From positions 1,282,001 through 1,346,000 of the forward strand of contig NZ_CP073748.1 of NCBI RefSeq assembly GCF_024398035.1: a stretch of DNA of 64,000 nucleotides. The letters run 5' to 3'. Position 1 is the first letter of the stretch. Every line of letters begins with the position of its first letter. The DNA comes from Kordiimonas sp. SCSIO 12603 (GTDB taxonomy: Bacteria > Pseudomonadota > Alphaproteobacteria > Sphingomonadales > Kordiimonadaceae). Shown one piece after another: positions 15,526 to 19,417 of this stretch. The translations under genes and the position numbers were made by a program. The notes below the pieces were generated by a model. That model saw only the letters and a list, made by a program, of their open reading frames with translations, was not told the origin of the DNA and searched no databases.

Positions 15526-16422
15526 TTAGTGAACCCAGGCGTTTTTAATCACTTCACCAAGTGCTTTGAAGGTTTCAGCCCGAGGGTTGGTTTTCCGCCA
15601 AATGAGGCCAATGGTGCGCGTAGGGTTAATATCTTTAAATTCCACAATATCCACACCTACATTATCCGTAAGGCCGGCATCCACTGCCATCTGGGGCAGT
15701 AAGGTTGTGCCGTGGCCAGCCGCTACCATTTGCAGAATTGTCGGCAAGCTGGTGCCTGAAAGTTCCCGGCGGGCCTGATTACCAACAAGCTGGCAGGCAT
15801 CAAGCGCGTGGTCGCGCAGGCAGTGGCCTTCCTCAAGCAGTAGTAAGTTGCTGTTATCGAGCTGGGCAGTGGTGATTTCCTTGCCCGGAGCTGTGTCTTC
15901 GGGGAAAGCGGCGACAAAACCATCATAAAAGAGCGGCATTTCGGCAGCGTCACCACATGCGAACGGCAGCGCGTAAAGAACAAGATCCAACTCGCCAGAG
16001 CGCATCAGGTCACAGAGATCAGCAGATTTATCTTCCCTGAGGTGCAATTCAAGGTCCGGTAGTTCTTTTTGCAGGGCAGGCATTACCTTCGGCAGCAGAT
16101 ACGGTGCGATCGTGGGGATAATACCGAGGCGGACAATACCCTTCAGTGGATCTTTGGCGGATGCTGCCATGTCAGTGAGGTCATCCACATCGTTCAGGAT
16201 TTTGAGGGCACGATCCACTACCTCCTCACCAAGAGCTGTAAACATCACGCTTCTTTTGGTGCGTTCCACCAGTTGTGCGCCCAGCAGGTTTTCAAGTTCC
16301 TGCAGGCCAGCGGACAAGGTTGACTGGGTCACATGGCTGCTTTCCGCGGCACGACCAAAATGGTTGGTTTTATGAAGGGCTACCAGATAGCGCAGCTGCT
16401 TTAAGGTGGGAGGAAAGCTCAT
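15526..16422 (-). CDS. oxyR: LysR-type peroxide sensor OxyR
   Basis: A 298-residue LysR-type regulator with an N-terminal winged helix (about 1-65) and a periplasmic-binding-like sensor domain. The redox pair that defines OxyR is present: Cys201 and Cys210 in GHCLRDHALDAC, with the same nine-residue spacing as Cys199/Cys208 of E. coli. Peroxide oxidation of this pair would switch it to activate catalase and ahpC. It is divergent from ahpC, the usual arrangement for a LysR protein and its target, and convergent with catalase. Confidence 0.94.
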   Translation of the reverse strand: MSFPPTLKQLRYLVALHKTNHFGRAAESSHVTQSTLSAGLQELENLLGAQLVERTKRSVMFTALGEEVVDRALKILNDVDDLTDMAASAKDPLKGIVRLGIIPTIAPYLLPKVMPALQKELPDLELHLREDKSADLCDLMRSGELDLVLYALPFACGDAAEMPLFYDGFVAAFPEDTAPGKEITTAQLDNSNLLLLEEGHCLRDHALDACQLVGNQARRELSGTSLPTILQMVAAGHGTTLLPQMAVDAGLTDNVGVDIVEFKDINPTRTIGLIWRKTNPRAETFKALGEVIKNAWVH

Positions 16423-16533: not shown

Positions 16534-16659
16534 TACAGAATATATTTTAATCGGTTGGATTGTTTTATCTTCTGCATGCATATTCATTTCAACAGGCAAC
16601 GACAGCGAGACAGCGACAGGCCTGAAACAGATTTGATTATATTAGAGGATACCAAGACC

Positions 16660-17193
16660 ATGCTTACTATCGGTGATAAAATTCCAGCGTTCGACCTTAA
16701 AGCAGTTGTTGATGCAAACATGCCTGCGGATGATTTTCCGCGTATTACAAATGAAAGCAATCCTGGTAAGTGGACAGTGCTTTTCTTCTGGCCAAAAGAT
16801 TTCACATTCGTATGCCCAACTGAAATCATCGCTTTCAACGAGCTGAACGAAGAATTTGCTGATCGTGATGCGGTTCTACTCGGTGCAAGCACAGACACAG
16901 ATTTTGTACACCTTGCATGGCGCCAGAGCCGTGATGACCTTGGTGAGGTTTCTTTCCCGTGGCTTGCAGACGTGAAGAAAGAGCTTTCTGACGGCCTTGG
17001 TATTCTGGACAAAGAAGAAGGTGTTGCACTGCGCGCTACATTCATCGCTGATCCAGACGGCATCATCCGTTATGCCGCTGTGAACGACCTTTCCGTAGGC
17101 CGTAACCCAGCTGAGGTTCTCCGCGTTCTTGATGCGCTGCAAACAGATGAACTTTGCCCATGTAACTGGAACCCAGGTGAAGAAACGCTCTAA
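16660..17193 (+). CDS. ahpC: Peroxiredoxin, alkyl hydroperoxide reductase subunit C
   Basis: I use the ATG at 16660, which has AGAGGAT ten bases upstream and gives a 177-residue protein of normal AhpC length; the open frame extends further without a ribosome-binding site. The peroxidatic Cys52 is in DFTFVCPTEI, and the C-terminal resolving region is CPCNW (Cys166, Cys168). A C-terminal cysteine cluster of this kind resembles mycobacterial AhpC, which is reduced by AhpD rather than AhpF. ahpD is the next gene and no ahpF is seen, which fits. It reduces peroxides in the cytoplasm and is probably OxyR-activated. Confidence 0.94.
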   Translation: MLTIGDKIPAFDLKAVVDANMPADDFPRITNESNPGKWTVLFFWPKDFTFVCPTEIIAFNELNEEFADRDAVLLGASTDTDFVHLAWRQSRDDLGEVSFPWLADVKKELSDGLGILDKEEGVALRATFIADPDGIIRYAAVNDLSVGRNPAEVLRVLDALQTDELCPCNWNPGEETL

Positions 17194-17356: not shown

Positions 17357-17887
17357 ATGTTAGATACAATTAAAAGCCAACTCCCAGCTTATGCAAAAGA
17401 CTTGAAACTGAACCTTTCTTCGCTGATGCGTGAAGAAACACTATCAGTAGAACGCCGTTATGGTTCGCTGTTCGCAGCTGCTCTTGCTTCAGGCAATGAA
17501 ACACTTATTAAAGCGTTTGCAGATGAAGCAGCCCAGCACTTGGACGCAGAAGAATTAGAAAATGTAAAAGCGGCCAATGCCATTATGGGCATGACCAACA
17601 TTTACTATCGTTTCCTTCATATGGCGAAGGATGGTGAATATCAGCGTATGGCTGCAAACCTTCGTATGCAGATTATCGGTAAGCCACCTGCGGATAAAGT
17701 GAACTTCGAACTGTTCTCGCTTGTTGTTTCTGCTGTGAACGGCTGCGAATTCTGTGTGGCTGCACATGATGCAGAACTGAAGAAAGCTGGCCTGAACCGC
17801 GAAGAAATTCAGGCAAGTATCCGTATTGCAGCAACTGTGCATGCGGTGGCAGGTGTGCTGACAGGCGAGGAAACCCTCGCTGCTTAA
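17357..17887 (+). CDS. ahpD: Alkylhydroperoxidase AhpD
   Basis: A 176-residue AhpD. The catalytic CxxC motif with proton-relay histidine is NGCEFCVAAHD, giving Cys130, Cys133 and His137, the same positions as in Mycobacterium tuberculosis AhpD. In that system AhpD passes electrons from a lipoyl protein to AhpC. It sits 163 bases after ahpC on the same strand. Its ribosome-binding site overlaps a 10-base match to the candidate antisense-acting RNA at about 18,100. Confidence 0.94.
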   Translation: MLDTIKSQLPAYAKDLKLNLSSLMREETLSVERRYGSLFAAALASGNETLIKAFADEAAQHLDAEELENVKAANAIMGMTNIYYRFLHMAKDGEYQRMAANLRMQIIGKPPADKVNFELFSLVVSAVNGCEFCVAAHDAELKKAGLNREEIQASIRIAATVHAVAGVLTGEETLAA

Positions 17888-17974
17888 CCAGCAATAGATT
17901 GTGAGGCGTATGGATGACCCAGCAGAAAAATGCAGGTGTCGCCTGATTATTGTCATAATTCAGATGTTATAAGA

Positions 17975-18008
17975 AAGTGGGCTAGGTTTCTGGCCCGCTT
18001 TTTCTGTT
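17975..18008 (+). terminator. Rho-independent terminator of ahpD
   Basis: The stem AAGTGGGC / GCCCGCTT contains one G-U pair and a 10-base loop. It is followed by TTTCTGTTT, about 90 bases after the ahpD stop. Confidence 0.7.
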
Positions 18009-18085
18009 TGGGGTTTCGTAAAATTTTGTCTGATTGATTTCTTTTATAGTTGTGAAATACAGCTAATAAGGGAAGTTTGCTTTAG

Positions 18086-18194
18086 ACAAAAAAGTGGCCG
18101 GGAAATACCCGGCCCGAGTCACGACAGCGAGGATAGAGTAACCACGAGGCGTGGTTACAATATGGAGAGACGCAGCAAGGCCGCGCCCTCTCGC
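18086..18194 (-). ncRNA. Candidate trans-acting small RNA, about 105-110 nt
   Basis: Read on the minus strand, this stretch folds into three consecutive hairpins. The first is GAGAG...CTCTC with an inner GCG/CGC (18192-18165). The second is a perfect 8-bp stem GTAACCAC/GTGGTTAC with a 5-base loop (18158-18138). The third is GGCCGGG/CCCGGCC (18114-18096), followed by ACTTTTTTG, a good intrinsic terminator. An unpaired linker between hairpins two and three (TCTATCCTCGCTGTCGTG) carries an anti-Shine-Dalgarno segment complementary to the ahpD ribosome-binding site. A promoter-like TTGACC lies upstream. No protein frame explains it. I do not recognise an Rfam family. It occupies the gap between ahpD and tadC. 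Confidence 0.6.
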
Positions 18195-18200
18195 AAGAAC

Positions 18201-18230
18201 TAAAAGACCAAATCTTGAGCGCGAGGTCAA
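18201..18230 (-). promoter_or_regulatory. Promoter-like sequence for the candidate small RNA
   Basis: On the minus strand a -35-like TTGACC (18230-18225) is followed after 17-18 bases by TCTTTT/CTTTTA. The expected start is near 18194, just before the first hairpin. The -10 match is weak. Confidence 0.4.
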
Positions 18231-18392
18231 TGCCTTAGTCATAAGAATCGTGCAAATCCTTGAATTTCTGCGAAATTTTTGTGTTTTTGTGATCAGAAGG
18301 CACCGCTTTTTCCATCGAAAGATTAGTAAATACTGCTCAAATCATCTCTGCGACAAACTGTGCAGAAACTGCGAGGAGTTGTTTTGAGGGAT

Positions 18393-18416
18393 GATTCGCC
18401 ATTTAAAAGGCGAATC
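18393..18416 (-). terminator. Inverted repeat after the tad operon
   Basis: A perfect 8-bp stem (GATTCGCC / GGCGAATC) with an AT-only loop, 15 bases past the tadC stop on the minus strand. There is no T tract after the stem, so it may end transcription only weakly or protect the 3' end. The rest of the gap up to 18231 shows no convincing gene. Confidence 0.5.
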
Positions 18417-18430
18417 GGGTGATGGTGCGT

Positions 18431-19417
18431 TTAACCGCCTTTGTTGATGAAATCATCAGCCACTTTACAGGCCGCAGGGCCCATAAGTACTACAAAGAGT
18501 GTGGGCATGATGAAAACGATAAGTGGTACCGTAAGTGTGGCTGGCAAACGTGCCGCTTTTTCTTCTGCTTTCATCAGGCGTTCGTTCCTGAATTCCGCTG
18601 ATAAGACGCGCAGTGAGGTAGCGAGCGGTGTTCCGTACCGTTCTGACTGGATAAGTGTTGTCACCACACCTCTAAGTGCAGGCACATCTACCCGTTCAGA
18701 CAAGTTTACCAGCGCCTGTTTCCGTTCCGGCAGGAAACCCAGTTCAATAGCTGTTAGGGAAAATTCATCCGCAAGCTCAGGGTAAGCTCGCCCCAGTTCC
18801 TTTGCTACACGGTTTAAGGCGCTATCCAATGTTAAGCCAGCCTCCGCACATACAACGAGCAGATCAAGCGCATCAGGAAGCGCGAGACGAATGGCTTCTG
18901 TGCGTTTCTGTTTGGAATTGGTGATGTATATATCTGGCAACTTCAGCCCAAAGAACACCATCGCGATGGAGAAAACAGGGTAGAGGTTTTTATGCTCAGG
19001 CAGGCTACCCATGCCGTAAAATAGGATAATACCTATCAAGCCCATCAGAAGCGGTAAGGTAAGGCGCGCTACCTGATAAACCACCACAGCGTCGTTTGAG
19101 CGGTATCCAGCCTGCATAAGGGCTGCGGAAATTTTGCGAGTTTGTTCCGCTTGCAGAAGTTTGAATTTATCTGCAATCAAGCGCATTAAATTCATGCTTT
19201 CCACTTTTTTTACAGGTGAGCGTCGTTTGCTGCTTGTTACCAGGCCTGCTTTCAAAGCTTCCCGTTTATCTTGCAGGTTTTTTACCCGCCCTTTCATAGG
19301 GTCACGTACAATAGTGGTTTGGTAGAAGGCATACATTACAAGGAAGGCAACAAGTGCTGCGGCCATTGCGAGCAAGTCAATAATCGGAATTCCGAGTGTG
19401 TTCTCTATATCCTGCAT
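18431..19417 (-). CDS. tadC: Tad pilus inner-membrane platform protein TadC
   Basis: A 328-residue type II secretion F-domain protein. It has an N-terminal membrane segment (about 15-32), a pair of central segments around residues 115-160, and a C-terminal one (LTVPLIVFIMPTLFVVLMGPA). The T2SSF core shows ALPDALDLLVVCAEAGLTLDSAL. TadB and TadC form the platform on which the CpaF ATPase drives Flp pilus assembly. It is the last gene of the run, one base after tadB. Confidence 0.92.
   Translation of the reverse strand: MQDIENTLGIPIIDLLAMAAALVAFLVMYAFYQTTIVRDPMKGRVKNLQDKREALKAGLVTSSKRRSPVKKVESMNLMRLIADKFKLLQAEQTRKISAALMQAGYRSNDAVVVYQVARLTLPLLMGLIGIILFYGMGSLPEHKNLYPVFSIAMVFFGLKLPDIYITNSKQKRTEAIRLALPDALDLLVVCAEAGLTLDSALNRVAKELGRAYPELADEFSLTAIELGFLPERKQALVNLSERVDVPALRGVVTTLIQSERYGTPLATSLRVLSAEFRNERLMKAEEKAARLPATLTVPLIVFIMPTLFVVLMGPAACKVADDFINKGG

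Follow-up and report, generated by a model that had tools for sequence, protein, structure and literature searches.

The window, i.e., the whole 64,000-nucleotide stretch of Kordiimonas sp. SCSIO 12603 DNA that was analyzed, harbors an intergenic region between an ahpD-like gene and a tadC-like gene, from the minus strand of which a small RNA of approximately 108 nt is predicted to be transcribed. The features of this locus, as positions of the window, are as follows.

15526 to 16422, minus strand: oxyR-like LysR gene (best NCBIfam match OxyR, 235 bits, under the cutoff of 329)
16599 to 16609, plus strand: ACGACAGCGAG, an 11-nt complement of the linker within the ahpC leader; candidate target, weak and nonconserved
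16660 to 17193, plus strand: ahpC-like peroxiredoxin gene (ATG at 16660)
17357 to 17887, plus strand: ahpD-like gene, the convergent neighbor (TIGR00777, 187 bits, just under the cutoff of 192)
18088 to 18195, minus strand: predicted small RNA, approximately 108 nt, its 5′ end placed from the promoter position
18088 to 18114, minus strand: intrinsic terminator, GGCCGGG-loop-CCCGGCC plus the tail ACTTTTTT; stem invariant
18116 to 18136, minus strand: linker CTATCCTCGCTGTCGTGACTC, containing the anti-Shine-Dalgarno motif CUAUCCUC; predicted antisense seed
18138 to 18158, minus strand: hairpin 2 (both-side changes in 8/8 consensus pairs)
18163 to 18195, minus strand: hairpin 1 (both-side changes in 6/8 consensus pairs)
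18202 to 18207, minus strand: weak, putative −10-like position TCTTTT, with a 17-nt spacer; variable in relatives
18225 to 18230, minus strand: TTGACC, candidate −35 element (in 28/28 family rows of the upstream alignment)
18431 to 19417, minus strand: tadC-like gene (T2SSF), the upstream same-strand neighbor

The predicted small RNA gene and its neighborhood

Every element of the minus-strand architecture described in the earlier note (consecutive hairpins, a GC-rich terminator stem followed by T6, and an upstream TTGACC) could be located by coordinates. The terminator consists of a 7-bp all-GC stem at positions 18114 to 18096, followed by T6, and the linker indeed carries an anti-Shine-Dalgarno motif, CUAUCCUC, within positions 18136 to 18116. 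The description of this linker as unpaired is correct in part, four bases, TCGC, having an unpaired probability of 0.05 to 0.16 and being predicted to pair inside the linker itself. The intergenic region is convergent, as had been stated, in that ahpD faces the tad genes; the RNA, however, is co-oriented with tad and starts approximately 235 nt beyond the tadC stop codon. A hairpin followed by a T run on the plus strand at positions 17977 to 18005, after ahpD (GTGGGCTAGGTTTCTGGCCCGCTTTTTCT), is probably the ahpD terminator and underlies a subthreshold Rfam match to L20_leader.

The minus strand of positions 18086 to 18230 folds at −55.3 kcal/mol, 14.7 kcal/mol below the mean of dinucleotide shuffles (−40.6 ± 3.8; z of −3.8), with none of 200 shuffles reaching so low a value. 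A sigma-70 scan reported no promoter at the RNA locus, the −10 sequence (TCTTTT) being poor, and the region scanned showed no excess of terminator-like sites (6, versus 4.0 ± 2.0 in shuffles). On the basis of the fold and these local scans alone the RNA would stay a candidate, and it is conservation that decides.

The neighborhood was compared across 27 named loci and the window (28 in total), several of the loci without an oxyR-like gene ending near the RNA. A tadB/tadC-like cluster was present in 22/28 loci, and a LysR gene of approximately 299 aa (oxyR-like) was located downstream on the same strand in 20/28, at a distance of 205 to 665 nt in 15 loci and of 1385 to 1713 nt in five. Such oxyR-like homologs were found near the RNA in loci of the families designated f1 (that of the window), f2, and f6, the window having ahpD and ahpC in between. 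The OxyS-like neighborhood to which the earlier note had drawn attention is, thus, a stronger feature than was claimed. OxyS of Escherichia coli is an RNA of approximately 109 nt, composed of stem-loops and a terminator, which is encoded beside and divergently from oxyR and pairs near the Shine-Dalgarno sequences of several mRNAs. The Kordiimonas RNA shares its size, its build of stem-loops and a terminator, its adjacency to oxyR, and, by prediction, the pairing near Shine-Dalgarno sequences, yet it differs in having no sequence match to OxyS, in being co-oriented with the oxyR-like gene (i.e., not divergent from it) in the window and its relatives, and in its predicted targets, the psp and GntR/ABC-transporter operons. 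A search of the whole window against Rfam at the gathering threshold returned no family at the RNA, and OxyS was absent from the matches over positions 17888 to 18430 even at E values of up to 10, in line with the earlier remark that similarity to OxyS was not evident.

It is, nonetheless, conceivable that the RNA represents an OxyS-like peroxide-response RNA, under OxyR induction and with peroxide genes as its targets, a reading which overlaps with our preferred one regarding the signal and which we consider unlikely. The oxyR neighborhood, the presence of ahpC and ahpD in some loci, and the size of approximately 108 nt are consistent with such a role, as is the 11-nt linker match in the ahpC leader of the window, which ends approximately 50 nt before the start codon. 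This match, however, is weak (duplex energy of −23.7) and was at most 8 nt in the other ahpC leaders examined, three of which end early at the locus end; ahpC was rejected as the main target, as the match is not conserved. Furthermore, no OxyR-like box was recognized upstream of the RNA upon inspection by eye, the orientation is unlike that of oxyS, and no recurrent peroxide target was found. The peroxide-defense role implied in the earlier note is, thus far, not supported, the recurrent predicted targets being the psp and GntR/ABC operons.

Conservation and distribution

A BLAST search of positions 18086 to 18230 against 98 genomes, including that of the window, identified one locus which matches strongly throughout f1, with many of the matches beginning at TTGACC. 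An exact 18-nt core was present in 29 of the 30 loci L002 to L031, L009 being cut by a contig end, and the alignment rows were anchored on this core, meaning that those 18 nt are invariant by selection of rows. In the resulting alignment, A2, which comprises 26 rows (L009, L030, and L031 being omitted and the identical L002 and L003 being represented by the window), the 27-nt sequence ATCCTCGCTGTCGTGACTCGGGCCGGG, spanning linker and terminator 5′ arm, is invariant, 18 of its nucleotides through the anchoring. Unselected parts were also invariant in the 26 rows, namely, the adjoining ATCCTC, the remaining terminator 5′ arm, and the 3′ arm.

In hairpins 1 and 2, 14 of 16 pairs were changed on both sides among 25 distinct rows, and the compensatory stem changes in relatives that the earlier note had named as a check are, therefore, present. 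The covariation score of 0.368 (versus 0.206 ± 0.012) was reached by none of 500 shuffles, and a measure based on further pair types was reached by 3 of 500, while sliding the partners of the hairpin pairs destroyed the pairing, with the true score lying above those of all slides. RNA lengths differ by single bases among relatives (114 to 118), which argues against a reading frame. The locus specifies a structured RNA, in which a variable scaffold is combined with a fixed linker and terminator.

Conservation also bears on the suggestion that the RNA is a 3′ untranslated region (3′-UTR) product of the tad operon, either processed from the tad transcript or merely terminating it. The RNA lies on the same strand, and the nearest listed tad-like member ends approximately 150 to 410 nt before the linker in all loci except L080 and L082; the latter two, however, keep the RNA though the tad-like gene is further off, and TTGACC is retained 35 nt before the presumed start in 28/28 rows while the sequence preceding it has diverged, rendering an origin in the tad transcript improbable. 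Some rows contain an inverted repeat, GATTCT-N6-AGAATC, ahead of TTGACC; the idea that it might be a regulator site was dropped, because its spacing is unlike that of oxyR-ahpC intergenic repeats and because the repeat is broken in the window.

A covariance model of the RNA, R1, matched 52 of 396 genomes of the order at an E value of ≤0.001. These included 29/29 genomes of f1, which presumably corresponds to Kordiimonadaceae; among genomes met in BLAST, 8/8 of f2, 6/7 of f6, and 2/2 of f7; and seven further genomes of the order with weak matches. In a class-wide sample, the matches outside the order were all weak: R1 scored 24.8 to 32.6 bits in 11 of 384 genomes besides that of the window, and these were not counted as members. 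An exact 23-mer scan of named genomes yielded 27 loci, 27/27 of which were confirmed by R1 (52.5 to 132.7 bits), from Kordiimonas, Pseudokordiimonas, Eilatimonas, Iodidimonas, alpha proteobacterium Q-1, Rhodothalassium, and MAG records. Rhodothalassium and Iodidimonas scored 57.2 and 56.8 bits, respectively, and the NCBI taxonomy places Kordiimonas, Iodidimonas, and Rhodothalassium in three separate orders. The RNA sequence of genome G016 is identical to that of the window, and one f2 genome carries two full RNA copies on separate contigs (L109 and L110; G052:C20 and C66). Within the Kordiimonas genome itself, a 20-mer of the linker with up to 3 mismatches has a single match, the RNA gene. Of the weaker secondary R1 matches within the order, 20 stretches were inspected, and two in the window's own genome (2.02 and 3.84 Mb) resemble terminators only. 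A sibling small RNA-like element, in which the core CCTCGCTGTCGTGA is followed by a terminator-like repeat, was observed in L106 (G012:C11:522710-522850, minus strand) and L231 (G007:C118, at approximately 7690), where it sits, as judged by eye, downstream of an hsp20-like gene.

Complementarity of the linker to distant mRNA leaders

Among the secondary BLAST matches listed for the RNA, 35 of 62 covered at least 12 nt of the linker in the RNA-carrying families f1, f2, f6, and f7, compared with 0 of 39 in the RNA-less families f3, f4, f5, and f8 (Fisher P of 2e-10 among the matches listed); this count omits pieces of the RNA locus in three genomes and the second gene copy in G052. In context, the secondary matches mostly represent the reverse complement of the linker in the mRNA sense. 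Of 38 sites which scored at least 14 outside RNA genes, a possible start codon was present within 20 nt in 17 and within 40 nt in 22, the remaining sites being located further up leaders, in coding sequence, or in the sibling element. Target sites in single genomes, which were picked by matching and include chance matches, comprise a 27/28 match ahead of a start codon (G008, L101); 19 nt ahead of an alpha/beta-hydrolase gene (G001, L111); 17 nt ahead of a MacB/FtsX permease (G027, L118); a site at a DUF4287/DUF5655 gene (G003, L135), for which G014 (L189) and G005 (L233) have look-alikes as judged by eye; one at a globin gene (G012, L182); and one, with one mismatch, at a beta-lactamase-fold gene in the window's own genome (L193).

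The 10-nt seed combined with a start codon was matched 90 times over 29 genomes (one match being the RNA gene), compared with 14 times for the reversed pattern; with N at the fifth base the count was 182, i.e., approximately 31 per other base. A position-specific composition model expects 62 such matches against the 90 seen, and seed-like words in the window were not in excess (4 versus 2.5). In view of this 1.4-fold enrichment and the lack of an excess in the window, many of the single-genome sites are attributable to chance and the seed count is regarded as supporting only. CACGACAGCGAGGATA with up to 2 mismatches was also commoner than its reversed control, in a count which includes the RNA gene of each genome. 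Two side observations concern this group of sites: L105 (G001:C54:134-149) contains a copy of a target-like site followed by a GC-rich hairpin and a T run, possibly a sponge RNA or attenuator, and a patatin-like protein and a response regulator (by eye) emerged from the background sample as further candidate targets (L213:651-1487 and L212:14308-14997).

Two recurrent partners were assessed through genes located by protein search in every family genome, without regard to the linker site. pspA (PF04012) was found in 29/29 family genomes, with pspB alongside in L246 and pspC in L242, and the GntR regulator in 28/29, followed in the inspected loci by an ABC ATPase and preceded by a small Arg-rich peptide frame. 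Ungapped linker complementarity had a mean of 9.5 on the PspA leaders and of 12.4 on 450 nt of GntR leader, versus 7.2 ± 0.4 for 60 shuffled linkers in either case (largest shuffle mean for PspA, 8.5); the PspA score is below that of GntR because the pspA pairing has bulges. Linker duplex energies averaged −36.4 on the PspA leaders (n = 29) and −36.0 on the GntR leaders (n = 28), compared with −25.4 over a background of 300 upstream regions and −24.3 with ten linker shuffles, and the linker in the opposite sense gave means of −20.9 and −22.3 on these leaders, no better than background. Control leaders, namely, those of oxyR (n = 17; mean, −16.2) and tadB (n = 10; mean, −20.5), displayed no excess over background (−22.5). 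Ranked against 457 background regions, PspA leaders fell in the best 1% in 21/29 genomes and in the best 5% in 27/29, and GntR leaders in 20/28 and 25/28, the weakest being L261 and L274.

The pspA site is mostly located at about −42 to −20, with a Shine-Dalgarno sequence, GAAAGGA, at about −14, and within the 60 nt before the pspA start the 1% tail of the background was reached in 22/29 genomes. pspA leaders with the site were also present in four BLAST-indicated f6 genomes (L241 to L244). In the GntR operon, approximately 180 to 420 nt separate the site from the GntR start, and the site frequently precedes the leader peptide by a wide margin, a placement which simple Shine-Dalgarno masking fails to explain; in the window's own genome, the ribosome-binding site of the leader peptide, ACAGCGAGGA, also fits the linker. 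The GntR/ABC leaders are long and T-poor, with repeated GACAGCGA-type motifs, and Arg-rich frames of approximately 32 to 45 aa head the operon in f1 and f7 loci (L253:1355-1486; L229, L230, L232, L236, and L245).

A further element of complementarity involves the terminator. The motif AA[AG]TGG (or AAG[AG]TGG), which is the complement of the terminator 3′ arm and U-tail, occurs a few nucleotides upstream of the linker site in 20/29 pspA leaders, compared with 16 of 463 background regions, and is absent from the other 9/29; in G002, a tenth genome, the contig lacks the RNA tail. Two forms of the tail exist, CCAC-T6 and, in other genomes, CCA with at least six T after it; where tail and leader can both be read (19 genomes), the tail base and pspA base are C/G in 7, T/A in 11, and T/G in 1, i.e., Watson-Crick in 18/19 with one G-U. 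The associated Fisher P of 1.6e-4 was computed as if genomes were independent, which they are not: in a PspA and GntR tree, the genomes with C/G fall into two groups (G000, G004, G008, G009, and G016; G020 and G027) that meet in an unresolved fork, and the independent joint changes may, therefore, number one or two. Joint folding of G000, G018, and G027 produced the same three-way junction in 3/3, and the inner hairpin of the terminator stayed intact. When a single consensus RNA half (linker and terminator) was used, the joint-folding gain averaged −19.7 over 29 pspA leaders, compared with −6.0 ± 3.1 over 463 background leaders, and lay beyond the 1% line in 25/29, with G010, G014, G015, and G027 falling short; two of the best background leaders, both from G021, carry linker complements and may be targets. 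Among GntR leaders, the tail-complement motif AA[AG]TGG[CT] was present in 7/28 and stood directly before the linker site, as in pspA, in three (G004, G023, and G026) but not elsewhere, and because of this inconsistency the junction is claimed for pspA only.

These results are also relevant to an alternative in which the common sequence functions, in DNA or RNA, as a leader element or as a binding site for a protein, for instance a regulator site upstream of the psp and GntR operons, and its reverse is carried by the sRNA for some other reason. While the abundance of GACAGCGA-type repeats in the psp and GntR leaders would suit such an element, the background-level scores of the opposite-sense linker and the covariation of the tail base in trans count against it, and it is considered a distant alternative. 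Least probable of all is a cis-acting leader or attenuator of oxyR, in which the terminator would decide read-through into oxyR in a riboswitch-like manner: the stem is invariant, and in 15/28 loci the oxyR-like gene follows the linker on the same strand at 205 to 665 nt without an intervening ahpD-type gene, but the RNA is kept in the window, L079, L081, L082, and L091 despite a gap of 1385 to 1713 nt occupied by opposite-strand ahpD/ahpC, which makes such a role unlikely, and both the complementary sites in trans and their absence, among the matches listed, from RNA-less families would be left unexplained.

Proposed mode of action and relation to known RNAs

The locus most likely encodes a real, so far uncatalogued bacterial sRNA beside a peroxide-sensor-like gene. 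As in trans-encoded base-pairing sRNAs, a discrete intergenic gene with a conserved structure and terminator is combined with conserved complementarity to distant mRNAs, and on these sequence comparisons we judge it likely, with good confidence, that the RNA is a trans-acting base-pairing sRNA which has a putative promoter and a terminator of its own and pairs through the seed CUAUCCUCGCUGUCGUGACUCGGGCC with the pspA and GntR/ABC leaders, probably blocking translation. Hairpins 1 and 2 would act as scaffolds, conserved in shape and free in their letters, and the fixed linker, CUAUCCUCGCUGUCGUGACUCGGGCC, would serve as the seed on several mRNA leaders, above all those of pspA and the GntR/ABC operon, with additional pairing predicted to the Shine-Dalgarno regions of other, lineage-specific genes. 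Translation of pspA would be blocked by covering of the ribosome landing zone, holding the envelope-stress output low until the RNA falls away, and control of the GntR/ABC operon would operate via the leader of that operon. Repression is predicted rather than activation or stability control, an outcome that we favor without great certainty. As for the signal, the place beside oxyR suggests a redox cue and the targets suggest membrane stress.

In the complex predicted for most pspA leaders of the family, the target strand would open the terminator stem at its base by invading on either side, the linker and 5′ arm pairing with GCCCGRG..ACAC..GCGAGGA and the 3′ arm and U-tail with AAAAARUGGCC of the pspA leader, leaving a shortened hairpin in a three-way junction. 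That the terminator of the RNA doubles as part of its seed, and that the RNA is dedicated to regulating envelope stress (psp and GntR/ABC) and encoded beside oxyR in several orders, is put forward tentatively, as a model with somewhat less than an even chance of being correct. Pairing through the terminator base and U-tail is, to our knowledge, not a standard mode, and one wording of a literature search on sRNAs pairing in this manner found nothing.

The nearest Rfam families on the RNA strand were SorY (RF02651; 22.6 bits versus a gathering threshold of 111), SorX (RF02784; 16.3 versus 46.6 bits), and suhB/MmgR (12.3 versus 41 bits). SorY and SorX are singlet oxygen resistance RNAs of Rhodobacter and belong to the alphaproteobacterial stress sRNAs; the likeness lies in a similar GACUYGGGCCGRG at the terminator start, the SorY match clearly being made via the terminator. 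In the alphaproteobacterial RNAs alpha-r14/Ff1, AbcR, and CcsR, an exposed pyrimidine-rich motif, typically a short one such as CCUCCUCCC, can cover the sites at which ribosomes bind numerous mRNAs. In contrast, the predicted seed of the Kordiimonas RNA consists of a long linker, a terminator arm, and the tail. The RNA is, therefore, provisionally filed as a separate trans-acting sRNA family outside the named families, a variant set apart by its predicted pairing mode. Among the literature matches on sRNAs in Kordiimonas and Iodidimonas (a coral microbiome study and a paper on GcrA/CcrM, respectively, as listed), the titles and abstract openings contain nothing on this RNA, and among those listed for sRNAs, phage shock, and pspA, no title or abstract opening mentions pspA as the target of an sRNA; a search on pspA mRNA in alphaproteobacteria found nothing, and no title listed by a broader search concerned these bacteria.

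If the terminator does take part in the seed, such pairing would explain the invariance of its stem and would remove the U-tail from any chaperone. The partners and the unusual pairing mode allow direct and exact compensatory tests. Descriptions of the phage-shock response and similar envelope-stress systems usually place their control at transcription, to which conserved antisense pairing of an RNA with pspA leaders would add a posttranscriptional layer.
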